A stretch of 38,966 bases of DNA from a virus (IMGVR_UViG_3300044800_000037:1-38966); one strand, 5' to 3'. Shown: positions 17,288-38,966, numbered from the stretch's first letter. Numbers and translations are program-made. Notes: generated from the letters alone by a model not told the origin.

Positions 17288-17689
17288 ATGATTGAAGTGA
17301 CAACGGTAACAGTAGATGGCAAGGCATTCCTTGGGACTCTAAAAGTTCTGGAACCGGACCTGAAATGGCAGGGGGTAGGAGTCCATATTGTAGCAAAACG
17401 GATACTGGATTTTAATCCTGATGCGGAAGACCGATTCAGGGCATTGGGTCTAAGGCAAGTTCATTATGCCCCTGAATATCATGGTTATTTCTATACTCAG
17501 ACTTTACCAGCCATAGTTGCCAAATCGGTTGAGTTCATAACAAGTAGATACTGGGAATATGTTTGGTGGTTATACACCCACGCTAGATTGTTTCAAGAAA
17601 TACCCCTTGCCGAACAGTTCTCTTGGAGATACTTCAGTTTATTCTACCCATTTTATAGGATGGTGACATGGTTGAAGCGACTGCGGTAA
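17288..17689 (+). CDS. Hypothetical protein before large terminase
   Basis: A 133-aa protein. The N-terminal half is beta-rich (VTVDGKAFLGTLKVLEPDL). The C-terminal half is unusually aromatic (SRYWEYVWWLYTHARLF and WRYFSLFYPFYRMVTWL), so it may be amphipathic or membrane-associated. It overlaps the terminase gene by 22 nt. No family recognised. Confidence 0.65.
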   Translation: MIEVTTVTVDGKAFLGTLKVLEPDLKWQGVGVHIVAKRILDFNPDAEDRFRALGLRQVHYAPEYHGYFYTQTLPAIVAKSVEFITSRYWEYVWWLYTHARLFQEIPLAEQFSWRYFSLFYPFYRMVTWLKRLR

Positions 17690-19008
17690 AGGTTAAGCCG
17701 TTTCGGGAGATATTAGCGGATGGGACACTGCGGTTACACTTCCACCCGGGGCAGACGAGGGCGTGGAAGTCAAGGAAGCGGAATGTAGCTGTAATAGCAG
17801 GGTCACAGGGTGGCAAGACCTGTTGGGGGCCGCATTGGTTAGACAGGGAGATAAGGACTTGCGGGCCTGGGGATTATCTCATCGGCACTTCTACCTTTCC
17901 CTTGCTGGACAGAAAGTTGCTTCCTGAGTTCCTGTATGTATTTCAGGATTTATACCATTACGGTGAGTTCAATGATAACAAGAAGATATTTACTTTCTTC
18001 ACCAAGAAGACAGCCAAGAAAGAGCATGATTATGTATTATTTCCCGATTCGGATATAGAAAGCAAGATATTCATCGGGTCGGCACAGAATCCAGAGTCGA
18101 TGGAAGCAGCCACAGTCAAGGCGATATGGCTGGATGAATGTGGGCAGAAACAGTTCAAAAGAGAGACGCATGAAGCTGTGCAAAGACGTGGTTTAATCAG
18201 TAAAGCCAGGACTCTTTACACGACAACTCCTTATTGTTTAGGGTGGTTTAAGACTGAGATTTACGACCGAGGGATTAAGGGCGACCCTGATATTGACATA
18301 ATACAGTTTGATTCTATTGAGAATCCTGCGTTTCCTGTGGAAGAATACCAGAGGATGAAGAGGACGATGCCCGACTGGAAGTTCCAGATGTTCCACCGGG
18401 GACGGTTCTCTAAACCTGCCGGCTTGATTTACGATTCTTTCACGGAAAACGACATTATAGAGCCGTTTGAGATACCGAATAACTGGCCGAGATATGTAGG
18501 ATGTGATTTCGGGCCAGATAATACTGTGGCTTTATGGAAGGCTTACGACCCTTCTACCGGCACATTTTATACCTATCGGGATTATGCTGGACATAATCTA
18601 TCCACATTTGAGCATGTCACCAACTGGATTGAGATGTCCAAAGGCGAAAGGATTGCCTCACGGATGGGCGGGTCGCCAACTGAAGATGGCTGGCGTGGGG
18701 ACTTTACTCAGGCAGGATGGCGGATAGAGAAACCTCTTGACGGCCATGTGGAATCGGGAATCCAGAGGGTTTATGGCTATGAGAAACTACACAAGCATAA
18801 GGTTTTCAGGACTTGCCATAACTATCTTTCCGAGAAACAGTCCTACAGCCGTGAGTTGGATGACAATTACAATGTCACCGACAAGATTGAGAACAAGTCA
18901 ATATATCACTTCATGGATGCCGAACGGTATATGATGACTCAGTTCAGACAATTATCGGTGGTGCCGAACAACGAGGAAATAGCACCGAGTGTTAGAATAA
19001 GGGGTTAA
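17668..19008 (+). CDS. terL: Terminase large subunit
   Basis: A 446-aa protein. The ATPase domain has Walker A AGSQGGKT (44-51), Walker B AIWLDE (152-157) and the coupling motif TTTPY (185-189). The nuclease domain has acidic residues D280 (VGCDFG), D345 (GWRGDF) and D417 (FMDAERY) in RNase-H-like order. It translocates DNA into the prohead and cuts it. Slightly compact for the family but with all main motifs. The start overlaps the upstream gene by 22 nt. Confidence 0.93.
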   Translation: MVEATAVKVKPFREILADGTLRLHFHPGQTRAWKSRKRNVAVIAGSQGGKTCWGPHWLDREIRTCGPGDYLIGTSTFPLLDRKLLPEFLYVFQDLYHYGEFNDNKKIFTFFTKKTAKKEHDYVLFPDSDIESKIFIGSAQNPESMEAATVKAIWLDECGQKQFKRETHEAVQRRGLISKARTLYTTTPYCLGWFKTEIYDRGIKGDPDIDIIQFDSIENPAFPVEEYQRMKRTMPDWKFQMFHRGRFSKPAGLIYDSFTENDIIEPFEIPNNWPRYVGCDFGPDNTVALWKAYDPSTGTFYTYRDYAGHNLSTFEHVTNWIEMSKGERIASRMGGSPTEDGWRGDFTQAGWRIEKPLDGHVESGIQRVYGYEKLHKHKVFRTCHNYLSEKQSYSRELDDNYNVTDKIENKSIYHFMDAERYMMTQFRQLSVVPNNEEIAPSVRIRG

Positions 19009-20958: not shown

Positions 20959-21156
20959 ATGGAGAATTTATTAGAAAAGGCATCCAAATTCTTGCAAGAC
21001 AATCCTTTCATAAATGAGGTGGAATTGGCGGACTGTTTGGGTAACAAGGTTCGGGTAGTGAGAAATGCACCTTGCGTTTTTACTACCTATCCCCACACTT
21101 ATTATCATTCATATCCGCAACCAGCTATCAATCCTAATACTGGGTTGCCGTATTAA
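20959..21156 (+). CDS. Hypothetical small protein
   Basis: A 65-aa protein (MENLLEKASKFLQDNPFIN and onwards) with a tyrosine/proline-rich tail (TTYPHTYYHSYPQP). GGAGGATAACCTG precedes the ATG. No family recognised. It lies between portal and the polyvalent gene. Confidence 0.65.
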   Translation: MENLLEKASKFLQDNPFINEVELADCLGNKVRVVRNAPCVFTTYPHTYYHSYPQPAINPNTGLPY

Positions 21157-21166
21157 GGAGAATCTT

Positions 21167-21316
21167 ATGCCATTCATAAATGAGGAATTGAAGAAACTAT
21201 CAAAGGATATTATCAATCAGGCACTTACTAGACCGACTATGGATAAAACACCTAGTAATCTTGTAGAAAAATTAAGGCAATCTATAGCCAAGCAAACGAA
21301 ATTACCGAAGGTTTAA
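21167..21316 (+). CDS. Hypothetical small protein (49 aa)
   Basis: Starts MPFINEELKKLSKDIINQAL and ends in KQTKLPKV; it is helical and basic. AAGGAGAATCTT precedes ATG 21167, so I reject the longer frame from 21065 that overlaps the previous gene. Unknown function. Confidence 0.65.
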   Translation: MPFINEELKKLSKDIINQALTRPTMDKTPSNLVEKLRQSIAKQTKLPKV

Positions 21317-21319
21317 GAG

Positions 21320-24300
21320 ATGGTAATGCAAGCCACGAAAGAATACGCCACACCAAAGCAAATTGAAATCCTGAAGAGTGGGACTTCTAAGAAGCAACTG
21401 ACGAGAGACCTATGGCTCACTCCTCAACAGGCAAAGGATTTAGGTTATAATCAAGGGGAAGGTGATTTCTTACTGACTCCTACGGCGGTCAAGACTGAGA
21501 ATCTCTATGGTGGTGTTCCTCAACCTTCTTATCTGACTAATTTCTATCCCAATTTATCTAATACTATTCAGAAACTATATCCTGATGTGCAGGGGGCGAC
21601 CATTGACGATGTTAAGGCGTTGGCATCTCAGGAAACGGATATTTTTGTCAATCATATTCGTTCAATAGGCAGGAATCAGGATACTTTGACCTTATTGAAG
21701 GCGATGGATATACCCGATGATGTGATTGACCAGATAATTCCGCCGCCGTATATGAAACCACAACCTCAAGTGAATTTATCTACTCAGGGATTTCTCAAGG
21801 GAACTACTGGAATAGGTGGTGTAAGTATTGCACCGACTAAAGTTGCACCAGTTGCACCAGTTGAAACTCCTACCAAAGTTACTACACCTATACCTGAAGT
21901 CCCAGGATTAACAAAAGCTCCTCTTGCGGGATATGAGATACCTCATCCAATAATAACTTTGCCATCCGGTCAAAAGATGGCATATCCAATGACTGACCAA
22001 GAATGGCAACAAATGACACCTAATGAACAGAATAGATACAAGACTCATCCACAAGAATGGTTAAAGGAAAAGAAGGCGTGGGAGAATGTCAGGAAATGGG
22101 GGGCACAAGGTAGTGTTATATTAGAGGCATTACTTAGCATAGAAATCCCCGAAGGAAAACTCAGTGAGAAGCAAATAGAAAGTCTGACTTCACAAGCATA
22201 TATTAGTTTGGCTCAGTATGCGGCTTTCCCTGCTGGGGAGGCAGTATTAAAAGGGGTGTTCTTTGAGGCTAAGACAGTTATTCCTGCATTGGGTAAGATT
22301 GAAAAGGTTTTAACGGCTGAACTTAGTAAGGGGATAAAACCGCCAGAGATTAAACCACCTGAAGTCAAACCCACAGAAGTTCCCAAACCAGCCCCTACTG
22401 TGACTACAGGGACTGTGGTAAAGCCTCCTGTTACCACAGAGGTTACAAAATTAGTTCCTGATGAAATATCTGATATATCGGGTTATATGTTTTCTGGTTC
22501 GGCTTCAAAGGAAGCACAAAGTAATTGGTTTTCAGGTAGTATAGATAAAGCATTAGATTTTGCTAAAGCTAGATTAAAGAGTGGTAGAGGTGGAGAACCC
22601 GTTGTACGAATATATAAAACGTCTGATATTGAAAGTAAAGGTGTTAATAAACTCGTAGATTTAATGGAATCATCTGGAAAACAAATACCATCTAGTGAAT
22701 ACAGTATGATGTATCTCAAAGATATTAAACCTACTTATACTATTAAATTAACAAAGGGATTCGACACAACAAAAGAGGATATTCTTGCTCAAATAAAAGA
22801 ACAAGCAATCCCCAAAGCCGAAGTTGGTATGCCTGAAGCTGTTAAACCTAGAATTGGTGTTATTCCTAAAACACCAGAAGAAGCCATTAGTATGGCGAAG
22901 GAACTAGACGCTGAATTAGCACAAGTAAAACCACTACCTAAAGTAGAACAGACAAAATTCGTAGATGAATATGTGGCATCAAAGGGACAGAAATTACCGT
23001 CGTCTCCACCTGAACCTCCTACGGCAAAAATAGAGTTCTCTACTGATATGCCCGCCTCTCAACAAGTAGCCAACCATATCTCTTTTGAACCTGATAAGGT
23101 TAGTCTATCCGAGACATTAGTCAAGGGTAAAAATAAGGCAATGACCGATTGGGTTGATAAGTTACACCCGATTGATAAGTTCGTTGATGTGGCTAAAAAG
23201 AGTGGAGTAGAACTTTCTTTAGAGGAAAACCCCTATATCCAAGCCCGTATGTTGGAAGGTGTTACAAGTAAGGCGACCACTTTCCTTGATGATGGAACAT
23301 TTGGTCGTAAATTCTGGAAGATAGAAAAGGGCAAGGCAGTTCCCAATTTCAAAGGAGAGGGACTTTCAAAGATACTTGAACCAGTCAAAGAACCAGAGGC
23401 TTGGAGGGATTTTAGCACATACTTAACATCTCTCCGTGCTGAGGAATTGAACAAACTAGGCATAGAGACAGGAATATCAAAGGATGTCGCAACGAAGGCG
23501 ATTGCTGAACTGGAAACCAAATACCCGAACTTCTCAAAACTATCGGATAAGATACAGAAATACCAGTCTGACCTCCTTGATTATATTCAGGAATCGGGAT
23601 TGATAAGTCCTGAATTAAGGGCGAAACTTGATTCTAAATATGCTTCCTATGTGCCTTTCTACCGAGTTCTTGAGGAACTTCAGGGGAAGGGTTATATGGG
23701 GAAAAAGATGGTTAATGTCCCCTCTCTGATTAAACGGATTAAGGGTTCAGAGAGGGAAATAGTCAATCCTTTAGAGAGTATAGTTAAGAATACTTATGCC
23801 TTTATCAATGCCGCCGATAGGAACGAAGTGGGTGTGGCAATGGCGAGGTTGGTTCACGATGTTCCTGAATTACAAGGTTTGTTTAATCCGATAAAGACTC
23901 CTATGGCGAAGGTAGCAAATGTTACCGCTAAAGAATTGGGAATTGATGTTGCTGGCTTGGAAGGTGTTGCTGAAGAAGTATTTGACATCTTCCGCCCATC
24001 TATGTTCACCAAAGAGAACGTGGTTACCGTGATGATTGACGGCAAAAAACAATTCTTTAAGGTAGACCCTGATTTAGGTAAGGCACTCACAGCAATGGAT
24101 ACGGGTAGTATGGGGATGCTTTGGAAGATACTTGCTTCCCCCGCCAAGTGGTTGCGTGCTGGTGCTACTCTGAGTCCCGACTTTATGATTCGTAATCCTC
24201 TCCGTGATGCTATGTCGGCTATGGTCTATTCTAATTATGGTTTCATACCAGGCGTGGATACTCTGAGGGGAGTTGCCAGTATTCTTAGAAAGGATGCGGC

Positions 24301-27300
24301 TTATAAACTATACAAGATGTCTGGGGCAGAACACTCTATGTTGGTCAGTCTTGATAGAGAATATCTTCAATCTACATTCAAGGAAATAGTTGAGGGTAAA
24401 AAGTTCACTGATTTTATAAGACATCCATTACAGTTACTTCAAATCGCAAGTGAACTTGGAGAAAAGGCAACCAGACTTGGGGAGTTTGCTAAGGGAATTA
24501 AGAAGGGAGTAATCCCTTTAGAAGCGGGTTTCAGTTCAAGGGAAGTAACCCTAGACTTTGCCAAAGCAGGAACTCAGGCGAAATCGGTCAATCAGATTAT
24601 CGCCTTCTTTAATGCCAACATTCGGGGTTGGGATAGAATGGTTATGAGTTTCAAGGAACATCCTATAAGGACATCGGCTAAGGTTATTGCGGGAATAACT
24701 ATCCCGTCTATTGCCTTGTGGTCGGTGAATCACGATGACCCACGCTGGAAGGAAATCCCACAATGGCAGAAGGATTTATTCTGGATTGTGATGGTTGGAG
24801 ATAACATCTATCGTATCCCTAAACCATTTGAGTTGGGTGTAATCTTTGGTTCAGGACCCGAAAGGTTACTGGATTATCTTAACACTAAAGACCCTAAAAT
24901 AGCCCAGAAGTTTCTTGGGGACTTCTTTCAATCAGGAACACCAGGATGGTTGCCGACTGGTCTTGAACCTATCATTGAGAATATCACCAATCATAGTTTC
25001 TTTAAGGGAACTCCAGTGGTATCTCAAAGTCTAGAAGATTTACCACCTGAGTTGCAATACACAGACTATACCTCAGAAGTGGCAAAGGGAATGGGAAAGT
25101 TACTTCATCAATCCCCACTGAAAATTGATAACATACTTTATGGCTGGACAGGGGGATTAGGCAGGTATGCGACCGAAGCGATTGACAAAGTCCTACAGAA
25201 AACAGGTGTAGTTGCACCCAAGATTGAACCATCGCCGACTCTGGCTGACTTACCTATAACAAGGGCTTTTGTCGTTAGAAACCCTCTTGGTAGTAGTAGC
25301 GAATCTGTAAACAATTTTTATGATGAATACAATTCCTATATCGGTAAAGAGAAATTACTGAAGGGTCTCATTGATGATAAGAAACAGGCGGAGTTTGATA
25401 AAGAGAAAGCCAAATATCCTGAACTACTTTTCGCCTATGATAGCAAAACCGATACTTATTATTCGGCGAGTGCAAGGTATCTGAGACAGGTATCTGGTGA
25501 ATTATCCGGTATTCGTAAATTAGAGGATAAGGTTTATAAAGATACGAGTATGACCCCTGAGCAGAAACGGACACTGATAGATTCTCTTGACCAGATAAAG
25601 ACAGATATGGCAAACAGGGCGTTGGAGTTAATTAAGAATCCCTCAAAGGAAGTAGGTATTTTAGAGACTCCTGTTAGCGAGGTTGAGAGTAAATTGGGAA
25701 CTATTACTGGTTCTCCACTCAGTCAAGATGTCGTTAAAATGACTGATATTGCTCCAGATTTAATTCAGGCAAAAGGTGAAAGTCCACTAAAAAAGTTACT
25801 TGAGACAAACAATAAGATACTGGCTGATATTGCCAACCTACCAGACCAACCGCTTTATCAGATAGACCGTACTACGACTAAGGCTGGATTGACACGAAGG
25901 CAGAATGAATTACTTGACCAGTATGATACTACTCCTGAAAAAGATAAAAAGAAGTTTATTGCTGACCATCCCGAACTATCGGAGAATCCAAAGGTGAAGT
26001 GGTTGACCGATAATCCCGAATCCAATGCCATTTTGGCTCTATGGGGTAACTCTAAACTCCTTACTCAAAAGGCTTATGATATTGCTGTGGGACTTGTGGG
26101 GACTCACGATATTCCTAATAATGCACTAGAGGAAAGAGTCCTACCACCAAAAGATTTAGCCACACCCTATTTTGAATTGGTTGTCGCCAAAGAAAAGTGG
26201 GGGGATAGTAGTTGGGAAGCCAAACTCATAATTGCTAAAAACCCTAAATTGGTAGAATGGAATCCTGCGTGGAGTTTACCCGATACTCCAATCGCCTCTC
26301 TGGAACTCAAGGTAAAGAACCGAACTCTCTATGACACTATATCTAGTTATTCCGACTCTACCTCACCACAATATATAGTGGATGAGAAGGAAAGGGCAAA
26401 GGCGGTCGCCAAACTCAAAGCCGATAACCCAGTGTGGGTTGACGATATGAGGCGTGTTGAGGCAATTGAGAATGGGGGATTGGATTTAGCAGTCCCAAAG
26501 CCAATTTCAATTCCCGATGCAATGAGTCTAGTTACTCAGGCTAAAACAGGTCATGTTGACCAAAATGGGAAAGCCCTTGATTCATGGAGCCAGACATGGT
26601 TAGACAATTATGACTTTATTCTGAAGACACTTAGCGATATTCAGAAGGGACAACCTAACGCAAATGACATAAATAAATCCCTTACCATCCTAAACGAAGA
26701 TTATCGCCATGATACACCACCTCAAGGATGGGAAAACTTCTTAACCCAACAACAACTACCACTAGGAGTGACACGAGAGACGGTTTCCTCTCAAATGGCA
26801 CTAGGATGGTCGCAGGTTAAAGCTAGTCAGGCATGGCTTGATATTTCGGGGTTACTCAATAGCCAACTGACCACTATGGGTAAGCCAAATACGGCGATGC
26901 CATCAGGTAATACTCTAGTCGAAACCCATGTTGCTTATGGCAAACTCCAAGACAAGCAAGGTGTAGGTTCATCCTCGGCTGAATCCATGTTATTCCGTGT
27001 GGACAATCCTCAATATGACCAATGGCGAACTGATACAAATATCTGGGGCGACCAAGCATTAAAACCAGTTGACCAGACTAGAATCCCTATCTGGCGGATT
27101 GATGTCAAATATACTAAACAGGATATTGAATACAATGCCATCAAGAATACCGTTGACGCCGAACAAACAAGACTAAGGAATGAATACCTTACCAAGAATC
27201 CTGACTACCGTATAGCCAGAAGGCAAAGGGATTTCTACAATCTGAACACTCCGTTAGTTACTAATCTGGTTCTCCGTGATAAATATGTCGGCTTCTACGA

Positions 27301-28072
27301 ATCATCGGATAAGGGATATGTCAAAGAGCATTATCGTCTAGACAATCCTGAGTTGGATGCCGTTCTCACTGACCCCAAGATTATGGGGAATAGTGTGTTG
27401 AGCAAGGTTGACCCCACCAAAATTCCTGATAAACGATATGACGAGATATACACTCAGTTTCAACCTTTATTTGACCAGTGGGATTCTTATGGGCAAGGGA
27501 CATCACCAAACTATATTGCCAATCCAGATGACCGAACAAAGGCTAGGGATACACTTCTTGCACAGAATCCAGACTTCAAGAAGGCTAGATGGGAACAGGA
27601 TGCTTATTTACTATTCATAGGGCAAGAGAAGTTCGTGCCTGACTATCTTGGTTACAAAGATATTACAGATAAAGGCAAACCTGCTGGACAGACTTACTGG
27701 TTTGAAGATGACTGGTACTTGCTAGACCATCCTGAGTTCTACAAGACGATGGTTACTAATGGACAATGGCAAGAAAGAGATTTCAGTAAAGTCCCACCAA
27801 GAGATGTCTATGAGTTATACCAGATTTACGATGCCATTATTGGCGACCCCAAGACCTCAAGGGCAAATGCTCGCCTAGAGTTCAGGAGACGCAATCCCAA
27901 ATTGGATGCTTGGCTAGTCCTCATTGGGGCAGTATCTCAACCAATAGAGGAATATGATGTAACGGCAGGTATGACGACTGCTGAGAAGGTTGGCAGGACT
28001 TTGGCTGCCAAAAGAGCCGAGATAGATAGGCTTAAAGCAGAAATAGATAAAAAACTCAAGGCAATGAAATAA
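21320..28072 (+). CDS. Giant polyvalent protein (LPD38-type)
   Basis: A 2250-aa protein, the largest gene. Parts I can see: N-terminal region (1-150), a proline/valine linker, a segment at about 385-500 (YMFSGSASKEAQSNWFSGS, then DKALDFAKARL) that looks like an ADP-ribosyltransferase-type fold, and a central helical region at about 600-1290 with NPLRDAMSAMVYSNYGF, FFNANIRGWDRM and IPKPFELGVIFGSGPERL, which matches large polyvalent-protein domain 38. The last 800 residues hold loose repeats of about 90 residues containing NP(D/E/K) motifs. Such proteins are thought to enter the host with the DNA. Role inferred. Confidence 0.8.
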   Translation: MVMQATKEYATPKQIEILKSGTSKKQLTRDLWLTPQQAKDLGYNQGEGDFLLTPTAVKTENLYGGVPQPSYLTNFYPNLSNTIQKLYPDVQGATIDDVKALASQETDIFVNHIRSIGRNQDTLTLLKAMDIPDDVIDQIIPPPYMKPQPQVNLSTQGFLKGTTGIGGVSIAPTKVAPVAPVETPTKVTTPIPEVPGLTKAPLAGYEIPHPIITLPSGQKMAYPMTDQEWQQMTPNEQNRYKTHPQEWLKEKKAWENVRKWGAQGSVILEALLSIEIPEGKLSEKQIESLTSQAYISLAQYAAFPAGEAVLKGVFFEAKTVIPALGKIEKVLTAELSKGIKPPEIKPPEVKPTEVPKPAPTVTTGTVVKPPVTTEVTKLVPDEISDISGYMFSGSASKEAQSNWFSGSIDKALDFAKARLKSGRGGEPVVRIYKTSDIESKGVNKLVDLMESSGKQIPSSEYSMMYLKDIKPTYTIKLTKGFDTTKEDILAQIKEQAIPKAEVGMPEAVKPRIGVIPKTPEEAISMAKELDAELAQVKPLPKVEQTKFVDEYVASKGQKLPSSPPEPPTAKIEFSTDMPASQQVANHISFEPDKVSLSETLVKGKNKAMTDWVDKLHPIDKFVDVAKKSGVELSLEENPYIQARMLEGVTSKATTFLDDGTFGRKFWKIEKGKAVPNFKGEGLSKILEPVKEPEAWRDFSTYLTSLRAEELNKLGIETGISKDVATKAIAELETKYPNFSKLSDKIQKYQSDLLDYIQESGLISPELRAKLDSKYASYVPFYRVLEELQGKGYMGKKMVNVPSLIKRIKGSEREIVNPLESIVKNTYAFINAADRNEVGVAMARLVHDVPELQGLFNPIKTPMAKVANVTAKELGIDVAGLEGVAEEVFDIFRPSMFTKENVVTVMIDGKKQFFKVDPDLGKALTAMDTGSMGMLWKILASPAKWLRAGATLSPDFMIRNPLRDAMSAMVYSNYGFIPGVDTLRGVASILRKDAAYKLYKMSGAEHSMLVSLDREYLQSTFKEIVEGKKFTDFIRHPLQLLQIASELGEKATRLGEFAKGIKKGVIPLEAGFSSREVTLDFAKAGTQAKSVNQIIAFFNANIRGWDRMVMSFKEHPIRTSAKVIAGITIPSIALWSVNHDDPRWKEIPQWQKDLFWIVMVGDNIYRIPKPFELGVIFGSGPERLLDYLNTKDPKIAQKFLGDFFQSGTPGWLPTGLEPIIENITNHSFFKGTPVVSQSLEDLPPELQYTDYTSEVAKGMGKLLHQSPLKIDNILYGWTGGLGRYATEAIDKVLQKTGVVAPKIEPSPTLADLPITRAFVVRNPLGSSSESVNNFYDEYNSYIGKEKLLKGLIDDKKQAEFDKEKAKYPELLFAYDSKTDTYYSASARYLRQVSGELSGIRKLEDKVYKDTSMTPEQKRTLIDSLDQIKTDMANRALELIKNPSKEVGILETPVSEVESKLGTITGSPLSQDVVKMTDIAPDLIQAKGESPLKKLLETNNKILADIANLPDQPLYQIDRTTTKAGLTRRQNELLDQYDTTPEKDKKKFIADHPELSENPKVKWLTDNPESNAILALWGNSKLLTQKAYDIAVGLVGTHDIPNNALEERVLPPKDLATPYFELVVAKEKWGDSSWEAKLIIAKNPKLVEWNPAWSLPDTPIASLELKVKNRTLYDTISSYSDSTSPQYIVDEKERAKAVAKLKADNPVWVDDMRRVEAIENGGLDLAVPKPISIPDAMSLVTQAKTGHVDQNGKALDSWSQTWLDNYDFILKTLSDIQKGQPNANDINKSLTILNEDYRHDTPPQGWENFLTQQQLPLGVTRETVSSQMALGWSQVKASQAWLDISGLLNSQLTTMGKPNTAMPSGNTLVETHVAYGKLQDKQGVGSSSAESMLFRVDNPQYDQWRTDTNIWGDQALKPVDQTRIPIWRIDVKYTKQDIEYNAIKNTVDAEQTRLRNEYLTKNPDYRIARRQRDFYNLNTPLVTNLVLRDKYVGFYESSDKGYVKEHYRLDNPELDAVLTDPKIMGNSVLSKVDPTKIPDKRYDEIYTQFQPLFDQWDSYGQGTSPNYIANPDDRTKARDTLLAQNPDFKKARWEQDAYLLFIGQEKFVPDYLGYKDITDKGKPAGQTYWFEDDWYLLDHPEFYKTMVTNGQWQERDFSKVPPRDVYELYQIYDAIIGDPKTSRANARLEFRRRNPKLDAWLVLIGAVSQPIEEYDVTAGMTTAEKVGRTLAAKRAEIDRLKAEIDKKLKAMK

Positions 28073-29362: not shown

Positions 29363-30214
29363 ATGACAACTGCTACTGATTTGGCTGCTGGTTCTAAAGC
29401 CATGATTGGTGCATGCAGATATACCTACGAACCGATACAGGTTTTCAAGAACACCGTCAATGTTCACACGATGGGACAAGGTGAGAAGAGTTACTATATT
29501 CCTAAATTCGGAACGATTGCTGTTGAACGGCTGACTGACGGCGTAGACATGACTAACTCTCAAACCCTGACTATCACCGGCACAACCCATACCACCAATG
29601 AGACGGGAGCCAAGGTCATCGTTACCAAAAAGTTAAAACAGCAATTCACCGAGGATGTTGCCCGGTCTACTGGTAAGATTATCGGCAATGCTATGGGCAA
29701 ACAGATGGATGTAGACGGCTTGACCCTTTTCTCAGGGATTGATAGCGGTTTAGGTAGTGGTAGTACGACCTTTGCACTTGGCTACTCTGCTGCTGCTGTT
29801 TCCCAGTGCATCGGGCAAGACGAACCTGCTCCTATGCCGATGGCTTTCGTCCTGCATCCCTACACACTAAACGACATCGTGGACTATCTGGCGACTCCGG
29901 GGACTACCAATATACCCCCAGACTACCAGATGGCGGTACTCCAGAATCACTTTGCTGGTATCATCAAGATGAATGGAATACCTGTATTCCACGATTCCAA
30001 TATCCCAATCGCTACTGCTACTTATGCCTACAGTGCCCTGTACTCGAAGGAAGCCTTCATCTATGTGGTCGGCTGGGAGCCAGACACCTGGATAGTCTAC
30101 AAGGATTCCCTGAGAGGCTGGGAAATCGGCATCGTGGCTGACTACGCTATGGTAGAGGAAGATGGCACCTACGGAAGGTATCTCTACTTTTCCGCTGCAG
30201 CCCCGACTTCATAA
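29363..30214 (+). CDS. Major capsid protein (HK97-fold type)
   Basis: A 283-aa protein after the scaffold. Features include a GEKSYYIPKFGTIAVERLTD strand pair, VTKKLKQQFTEDVARSTGK, a FVLHPYTLNDIVDYL segment, GIPVFHDSNIPI and WIVYKDSLRGWEIGIVADY. These match the peripheral/axial parts of HK97-like major capsid proteins. No N-terminal protease target is obvious. AAGGAGGATACGCAC precedes the ATG. A short hairpin follows at 30225-30240. Confidence 0.85.
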   Translation: MTTATDLAAGSKAMIGACRYTYEPIQVFKNTVNVHTMGQGEKSYYIPKFGTIAVERLTDGVDMTNSQTLTITGTTHTTNETGAKVIVTKKLKQQFTEDVARSTGKIIGNAMGKQMDVDGLTLFSGIDSGLGSGSTTFALGYSAAAVSQCIGQDEPAPMPMAFVLHPYTLNDIVDYLATPGTTNIPPDYQMAVLQNHFAGIIKMNGIPVFHDSNIPIATATYAYSALYSKEAFIYVVGWEPDTWIVYKDSLRGWEIGIVADYAMVEEDGTYGRYLYFSAAAPTS

Positions 30215-31763: not shown

Positions 31764-32687
31764 ATGACAGTTGGTGTTGTGGCAAAAGATGATGGGAAAA
31801 TATACCAGTATAATTCTGATACTAATCAGTATGATATTGAGGTACTCCCATCTCCTGAAATTACTATGGATGCCGAACTGGCTGCGGCTCTTGCTAATAT
31901 TGAGTTACTACCTGGCCCGAAAGGCGACACTGGCGAACAAGGTGTGCCCGGTGTTGATGGCGCTCCAGGTGCACAGGGTATCCAAGGCGACCAAGGCATA
32001 CAAGGTCAGCCAGGTATTAAGGGCGACCAAGGTGAACAAGGAATACAAGGACTGCCTGGGGAGGATGGTATTCAGGGGGAACAAGGGGAACAGGGTATCC
32101 CTGGGGAAACTGGTGCGACTGGTGCTAAAGGGGACAAGGGAGATAAGGGAGATACCGGGAATACTGGCCCACAAGGTCAACAAGGGACTCAGGGAATTAA
32201 AGGCGATACGGGAAATACAGGGGCAAAGGGAGATACTGGGAATCAAGGTATTCAGGGGATACAAGGCATACAAGGGGTTCAAGGAATACAGGGGGTAGCA
32301 CCAGCACCTTATACTCTATCACTGATTGCTCCGACTGCTTTCATTGCTTGGACTAATATGCCTGCTGCCGTAACAGAGTTTCTCGGTCTGGCGATTCAAA
32401 GAACTAAGGCAGACCTGAGTGTGGCTACGCAGTCAAGGGTAACGGTTAGAGTTGGAGTTGTTCCTTATGCCAATGCTAAGATAAAGGTTCAATACTCTAC
32501 GGATGAGTCTGCTTGGGTTGACCTCTGCTCAGTAACGATGCCAGCGACAGCCAACAAGACTAATATTGGAACTTGGACTGATATTCCTAGTGGAGCTAAA
32601 GCCGATGTATTTCTAAGACTCGTTGGAATAGACGGCAATGGTGTTGCCGACCCTAGCTTCGGGTTGATAACAATCCAGGTAAAATAG
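31764..32687 (+). CDS. Collagen-like tail/appendage protein
   Basis: A 307-aa protein. Residues about 51-177 are Gly-X-Y triplets (GPKGDTGEQG and similar, with many GIQ units). The N-terminal 50 residues would form the anchor; the C-terminal 130 residues form a beta domain (SRVTVRVGVVPYANAKIKV). Collagen-like stalks trimerise and are common in phage fibres. AGGGGAGGTTAAA precedes the ATG. Confidence 0.88.
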   Translation: MTVGVVAKDDGKIYQYNSDTNQYDIEVLPSPEITMDAELAAALANIELLPGPKGDTGEQGVPGVDGAPGAQGIQGDQGIQGQPGIKGDQGEQGIQGLPGEDGIQGEQGEQGIPGETGATGAKGDKGDKGDTGNTGPQGQQGTQGIKGDTGNTGAKGDTGNQGIQGIQGIQGVQGIQGVAPAPYTLSLIAPTAFIAWTNMPAAVTEFLGLAIQRTKADLSVATQSRVTVRVGVVPYANAKIKVQYSTDESAWVDLCSVTMPATANKTNIGTWTDIPSGAKADVFLRLVGIDGNGVADPSFGLITIQVK

Positions 32688-38435: not shown

Positions 38436-38966
38436 ATGTCTACTGAATATGAATTTTTACACGTTGACGCTGGTTTTAATAATCTTGCTATGCCATCTAC
38501 AGTTAATTGGAGAGCACAAACTTTTACAGTAGGTGCTGTTGCGACTAATGTAAATCACACAGTTACCAGTGTAAAACTATATCTGACCAAGACTGGAAGC
38601 CCGACAGGTAATATTATTGTCAGTATTAGGCATGTAGACTCAAATAACAAACCTACTGGTAATGATTTATGCGCGGGAACTCTCAGCATTGTTGGTATGA
38701 GTTCTGGTACTTATGAGATATTTCTTAATCCAGCATTTATTCTACTAGCCAGCACGAGGTATGCCATTGTTATTAGGCGTGATGTTACCGACACAAATAA
38801 TTATCCTCAATTAGTGTTGTCTGGCTCTCCTGCTGACCCATATAATCAAGGAGTGTCATTCGCAGATGGTGGAGATTCGGGAGCAACTTGGAGCGCAAAC
38901 AGTCAAGGTAGGGACTTTGAGTTTGAGGAGTGGGGAAACCCTGCGACACTTCAGGTTACTACTATC
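38436..38966 (+). CDS. Tail/appendage protein, 5' part (gene split by contig ends)
   Basis: Starts MSTEYEFLHVDAGFNNL at ATG 38436, 1 nt after the previous stop, and runs to the end of the window; it continues at 128 of this window to a stop at 508 (303 aa in all). This half has a beta-sandwich with QTFTVGAVATNVNHTVTSV, YLTKTGSPTGNIIVSI and TRYAIVIRR, a pattern of small jelly-roll domains in surface and phage appendage proteins. Confidence 0.8.
   Translation, partial: MSTEYEFLHVDAGFNNLAMPSTVNWRAQTFTVGAVATNVNHTVTSVKLYLTKTGSPTGNIIVSIRHVDSNNKPTGNDLCAGTLSIVGMSSGTYEIFLNPAFILLASTRYAIVIRRDVTDTNNYPQLVLSGSPADPYNQGVSFADGGDSGATWSANSQGRDFEFEEWGNPATLQVTTI
38840..38966. repeat. Terminal direct repeat, right copy (assembly overlap)
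   Basis: Exact copy of bases 1-127; see the left copy. Confidence 0.95.

Follow-up and report, generated by a model that had tools for sequence, protein, structure and literature searches.

LPD38 is a domain defined in polyvalent proteins and found only in phages (Iyer et al., 2017, PMC5512222). The view that phage DNA is accompanied by polyvalent proteins has so far been based mainly on gene context. For one LPD38 carrier, gp69 of phage JC1, 51 unique peptides were recovered from CsCl-purified virions (PMC9144972). A separate literature concerns the N4-type virion RNA polymerases (vRNAP), whose lack of cysteine (Cys) has been noted and explained by passage through the tail and periplasm (PMC3715699, PMC2784036, PMC3915230), and a limited literature search found no paper that carries this reasoning over to polyvalent proteins. 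Here we analyze a 2250-residue LPD38 protein encoded by IMGVR_UViG_3300044800_000037, a viral DNA stretch of 38,966 nucleotides that we refer to in its entirety as the window. Our analysis suggests that the window protein is quite probably a giant ejection protein carried in the virions of a short-tailed phage, one that is packaged and then ejected with the DNA, with a core that would serve delivery.

The LPD38 core and the exclusion of cysteine

A Pfam search of the window protein returned LPD38 (PF18857) as the sole domain above cut-off, with an E value of 5.1e-46 and 157.6 bits relative to a cut-off of 27, which makes the protein a member of this family and bears out the initial annotation, where the central region had been assigned to LPD38. 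A weak PUF_NOP9 match below cut-off was ignored, and searches of NCBIfam and of PDB sequences gave no match. The PHROGs matches were to uncharacterised giant-protein families, the best being phrog_9854 (residues 897-1440, E 1e-127). The LPD38 domain lies in a conserved core that, beyond the two motifs listed in Table 1, contains LRAGATL.P.F..RNP.RD. By tblastn this core is present in 164 phage records that include Pelagibacter phages HTVC034P, HTVC010P and HTVC204P, Bacillus Page-type phages, Escherichia phage PTXU04, many Vibrio phages and Burkholderia Bcep-type phages. Searches of IMG/VR gave 26 loci with the whole-protein query and at least 80 with a core profile, some of which repeat the first set, and a single scan of GTDB genome contigs yielded five loci, all distant and spread over varied taxa. 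The LPD38 region of HTVC010P (L108, 7986-10455) is spread over several annotated open reading frames (ORFs) where relatives have a single ORF, reflecting either a frameshift or a real split.

AlphaFold2, run with 69 sequences, predicted most of the core at a predicted local distance difference test score (pLDDT) above 85-90. When this model was compared by Foldseek with viral models there were 75 significant matches, the named ones being mostly large polyvalent proteins and including proteins named for RelA/SpoT, LT_GEWL and ART-PolyVal-like domains. By the terms of the initial annotation, a structure showing only a known head or tail fold would count against it; for the core the comparison matched no solved structure, the best Foldseek hit in the PDB having an E value of 1.1, and a match of the core profile to cathepsin K in the PDB (E 0.3) was set aside as chance. 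Judged from these models, the core has a fold that occurs widely, is predicted with confidence and lacks a solved structure.

The window protein contains no Cys in 2250 residues, a feature that it shares with the known large ejection proteins. Among 88 distinct LPD38 ORFs we counted 37 Cys in 141,654 residues (0.26 per 1000), with 68 of the 88 having none, whereas the other plus-strand ORFs of at least 300 aa at the same loci contain 831 Cys in 115,560 residues (7.19 per 1000; Fisher p 2e-234, a statistic that ignores relatedness). Cys is the sole strongly depleted residue in the LPD38 ORFs (ratio 0.04), with His next at 0.59. The cultured LPD38 proteins of JC1, HTVC034P, BA3, Palmer, PTXU04 and FGH have no Cys. 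Giant proteins of all the core types described below have 30 Cys in 97,849 residues, and those with an alternative core behave alike. Control ejection proteins gave a total of 0 Cys in 6874 residues (N4 vRNAP, gp50, 0/3500; T7 gp15 0/747; T7 gp16 0/1318; P22 gp7, gp20 and gp16 0/1309), while a single Cys is present in each of the small T7 proteins gp14 and gp6.7. Control sets of virion proteins taken as non-ejected and of non-virion proteins have 4.7 and 14.2 Cys per 1000, respectively.

The absence of Cys could instead reflect the host environment, or the amino-acid cost of large proteins, and have nothing to do with tail passage. Large proteins do cost more, and some virion proteins that are not known as ejected are likewise free of Cys. 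However, Cys occurs at normal levels in the other long ORFs of these loci, and no other residue shows so strong a departure; N4 gp65, a large virion protein not known as ejected, has 11 Cys in 1382 aa; and the pattern spans unrelated hosts (Pelagibacter, Bacillus, Vibrio, E. coli and Burkholderia). We therefore regard this explanation as improbable.

The position of the LPD38 gene in relatives also points to ejection. In HTVC034P the genes for tail tube A, tail tube B and a T7-gp14-like internal virion protein (phrog_418, E 1.6e-5) come before this gene and a tail fibre gene comes after it, a position that is the T7 gp16 slot. In BA3 and vB_ValP_FGH it is located one gene beyond a P22-gp7-type DNA-ejection gene (phrog_598, E 2e-50 and 1.5e-46, respectively). 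Fusion of the core to lysozyme-like domains in some phages points the same way. The slots, together with the Cys counts, bear on a further possibility, namely that the giant is a static structural protein of the head or portal vertex, such as an internal core or a portal lining, that is never ejected. The giant gene does adjoin the portal candidate, and both conserved ends are kept within one portal clade. Yet the proteins of the same phages that hold such static roles do contain Cys (5.1 per 1000 in portal candidates and 6.0 in capsid proteins, about 16 times the level in the giants, with terminases at 12.7), and the relatives' genes occupy ejection-protein slots, so that a static role appears very improbable.

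Several observations weigh against an ejected protein. The window gene sits between the portal candidate and the capsid gene and not after tail genes. PHROG, PDB-sequence and PDB-fold searches found no sequence or fold likeness to the ejection proteins of T7, P22 or N4. The only hydrophobic stretch of the window protein (residues 1118-1136) is too marginal to be called a membrane helix. The Cys signature is neither universal for packaged polyvalent proteins nor absolute, since DarB of P1, a packaged polyvalent protein of a contractile-tailed (long-tailed) phage, has 9 Cys in 2255 residues and 20 of the 88 LPD38 ORFs hold at least one; several virion proteins not known as ejected also lack Cys.

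On balance we infer, from the LPD38 family, the absence of Cys, the slot in relatives and the JC1 virion data, that the window protein itself is packaged and ejected. The giant protein would be packaged in the phage head, where its N-terminal segment and helical-repeat tail may provide the fit to the other components. On infection the protein would exit via the portal and tail in a state that is unfolded at least in part, and a Cys-free chain could pass the tail channel and the oxidising envelope without being trapped by disulfides. The LPD38-type core would then act as a conduit at or beyond the cell envelope, within the DNA-delivery machinery, in the role of the protein from the T7 gp16 slot. 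Phages can exchange this core, probably as an adjustment to differing host envelopes.

Exchange of the core between conserved ends

The nearest phages were compared for their terminase, portal candidate and capsid proteins, with identities to the window of 79, 75 and 89% for L024, 76, 72 and 78% for L032, and 75, 70 and 61% for L020. The giant protein of L032 carries an LPD38 core. In L024 and L020 the giant gene is at the same place and its product shares with the window protein parts of residues 1-166 and 1517-2250 (29-53% identity), but the middle differs. This alternative core is found in about a dozen contigs and has no Pfam match and no convincing PHROG match. Homology to the LPD38 core was not detectable by profile-profile comparison, though by eye both show a hydrophobic helix followed by a 'DPR...RI.P' stretch; models of the alternative core (pLDDT about 35-88) were too poor for fold comparison. 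Further middles occur between the same ends in L125 and L127 and in L129, with the last third of the L129 middle being shared with the alternative core. L128 and L131, which are 45% identical, represent another family in the giant-gene slot.

When core type was mapped on the portal tree, well-supported branches required at least six changes for the LPD38 label and at least five for the alternative type. The window's own portal clade (99/98 support) contains three core types, and different cores are found within each of the sister pairs L124/L006 and L113/L011. Chimeric assembly is an unlikely source of this pattern because it recurs in many independent open-frame contigs as well as in these sister pairs. 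The segment that we call the N-dock is kept whichever core is present, with profile matches in L003, L006, L011, L012, L018, L020, L024, L032, L113-L116, L118, L119, L124, L125 and L129. As far as sequence comparison can establish it, the core is shown here to be replaceable as a whole module, with the ends staying with the phage lineage. Because of this arrangement, a division between packaging ends and an active core is experimentally testable.

The motif PKAEAGMPEAG...GKG..Q.SMEDQLKLQQAR recurs just upstream of the core in L020, L024, L003, L004 and L113-L131, and this junction is possibly a recombination or processing site. For the C-terminal tail, the homologue in L024 was modelled mostly at 80-94 pLDDT as predicted helical repeats. 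The tail model had no significant match among PDB folds, with T7 gp15-gp16 listed at a non-significant E value of 9.2.

We also lean, if less firmly, toward a more general proposal. Cys exclusion may be a general, family-independent property of giants ejected by short-tailed phages, extending over LPD38 and the unrelated-looking cores, and the giant of this phage group may be a delivery chassis whose ends are fixed and whose core, about 850 residues long, is interchangeable and passes wholesale between close relatives. The Cys pattern provides a simple quantitative test that can be applied by scanning any genome; it would tie LPD38 proteins to the ejection proteins of T7, P22 and N4 without homology, and would predict which of the many uncharacterised giants of phages enter the cell.

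The N-terminal region and the effector question

An anti-defence polyvalent effector would also be injected, with the core or the N-terminal part disabling restriction or other defences in the cytoplasm and the core swaps representing an arms race. This agrees with the definition of LPD38 in phage-only polyvalent proteins and with the repeated exchange of cores among closely related phages. The same core is moreover fused in relatives to N-terminal methylase, Zeta-toxin, ART-PolyVal or pyrophosphatase domains. In the LPD38 protein of L013 (5718-10139), which is among the few members that have Cys, the N-terminal part gives a weak C2H2 zinc-finger-like match that stays below cut-off (E 9e-4).

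The window protein differs from these fusions in that no effector or enzyme domain could be recognised in it, nor in the N-terminal portions of its tailed relatives. Where a polyvalent protein would combine at least two disparate activities, LPD38 alone was recognised, and no activity could be assigned to the N-terminal and tail regions. Specifically, the initial annotation had proposed an ADP-ribosyltransferase (ART)-like segment at about residues 385-500, a proposal that we reject. This segment has no Pfam match even at an E value of 5 (ART-PolyVal, PF18760, included), no homologue in related phages and no similarity to the true ART-PolyVal segment of the relative L023, and it is predicted at only about 40-75 pLDDT. 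In most family members the core forms the end of the protein and the N-terminal part alone varies, and because the core is constant where the N-terminal payload is variable, the core fits a carrier better than a payload. An anti-defence role for the window protein is possible but unsupported here, and we consider this explanation unlikely overall. Delivery with DNA to counter host defences, as initially suggested, is indirectly supported by several independent lines as regards packaging and ejection, but its second half has no positive evidence here, given that no effector enzyme is recognisable.

Genome context and comparison with known systems

The 2250-codon ORF is genuine, its length being far beyond chance and its core, tail and N-terminal segment all having homologues. 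Its initially annotated coordinates were exact, and it occupies 6753 of 38,966 bases. Because the window begins and ends with the same 127-bp sequence, it probably represents the complete genome, about 38.8 kb in length, and the earlier estimate that the gene makes up about 17% of the genome therefore stands. The gene is flanked by virion genes, with the terminase and portal candidate on one side and the capsid genes on the other; the ORFs downstream of it are, in order, a 144-aa ORF, the scaffold candidate and the capsid protein. The position between portal and scaffold reported initially is correct, with the qualification that two small ORFs intervene and that both landmarks are candidates. 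Portal family membership has a single direct match, a weak one in the relative L006 (PHROG, E 0.11), and the scaffold candidate has no convincing family match in Pfam or PHROGs. A collagen-repeat tail fibre candidate is present at 31764-32687 (PF01391, E 1e-22).

Table 1. Features of the window and of the giant-gene slot in related contigs (window positions unless a contig is named).
Feature	Position	Strand	Description
Gene for 2250-aa LPD38 protein	21320-28072	+	ATG start; 2250 codons without stop; Cys-free
N-dock, residues 1-169	21320-21826	+	Conserved segment, kept in relatives whichever core is present
Variable N-terminal region, residues 170-575	21827-23044	+	No recognised domain; low confidence where predicted
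Segment proposed as ART, residues 385-500	22472-22819	+	ART reading not supported
Junction remnant PKAEVGMPEA, residues 498-507	22811-22840	+	hhalign match to A5 over 13 columns; junction profile in relatives
LPD38-type core, residues 576-1442	23045-25645	+	Conserved, about 870 residues; apparently a replaceable cassette
Pfam LPD38 (PF18857), residues 1140-1296	24737-25207	+	Invariant RWKEIPQWQK..FW and RIPKPF motifs
C-terminal tail, residues 1514-2250	25859-28069	+	About ten NP-motif alpha-helical repeats; common to relatives with different cores
Alternative-core family	L024:7920-13697; L020:8001-15194; L113-L124		Replaces LPD38 between the same ends
Further core types	L125:6177-13307; L129:6033-13808; L128; L131		Same slot
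Direct terminal repeat, 127 bp	1-127 and 38840-38966		Exact match between copies
Terminase large subunit	17668-19008	+	PHROG terminase, E 2.5e-17
Portal candidate, 594 aa	19170-20954	+	Between terminase and capsid genes; conserved in 31 related ORFs
Two small ORFs	20959-21156 and 21167-21316		Between portal candidate and giant gene; read by eye
Scaffold candidate, 267 aa	28542-29345	+	Precedes capsid gene; homologues in L024, L032 and L020
Major capsid protein	29363-30214	+	PF25209, E 3e-7

Relative to LPD38 large polyvalent proteins in general, the window protein has the strong domain match, the late-gene position and the giant size, and it shares its core with the LPD38 proteins of cultured podoviruses at about 26-33% identity. 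It differs by the lack of a recognised effector, by the placement of its gene next to the portal candidate and by a C-terminal repeat tail of about 740 residues that is absent from most members. The 'DarB-like' proteins of the JC1 gp69/Bcep22 type have a detectably similar core. JC1 gp69, which is Cys-free like the window protein and virion-associated by mass spectrometry, has its LPD38 near the C-terminus (residues 4195-4401) but is 4515 aa long and has transglycosylase-like, methylase, helicase and LPD3 domains, none of which was found in the window protein. HTVC034P gp44 is also Cys-free and matches the LPD38 core over 45% of the query at 32% identity; unlike the window protein it has 1229 aa, no C-terminal repeat tail and a gene in the T7 gp16 slot. 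T7 gp15 and gp16 and P22 gp7, gp16 and gp20 have no detectable sequence or fold similarity to the window protein and share their slot only with the LPD38 gene of its relatives, but they have in common with it the absence of Cys. Finally, N4 gp50 is unlike the window protein in being a polymerase, as no single-subunit RNA polymerase domain was matched in the latter (Pfam, PHROGs), and resembles it in being a giant without Cys, in this case one that is virion-borne and injected by a podovirus.

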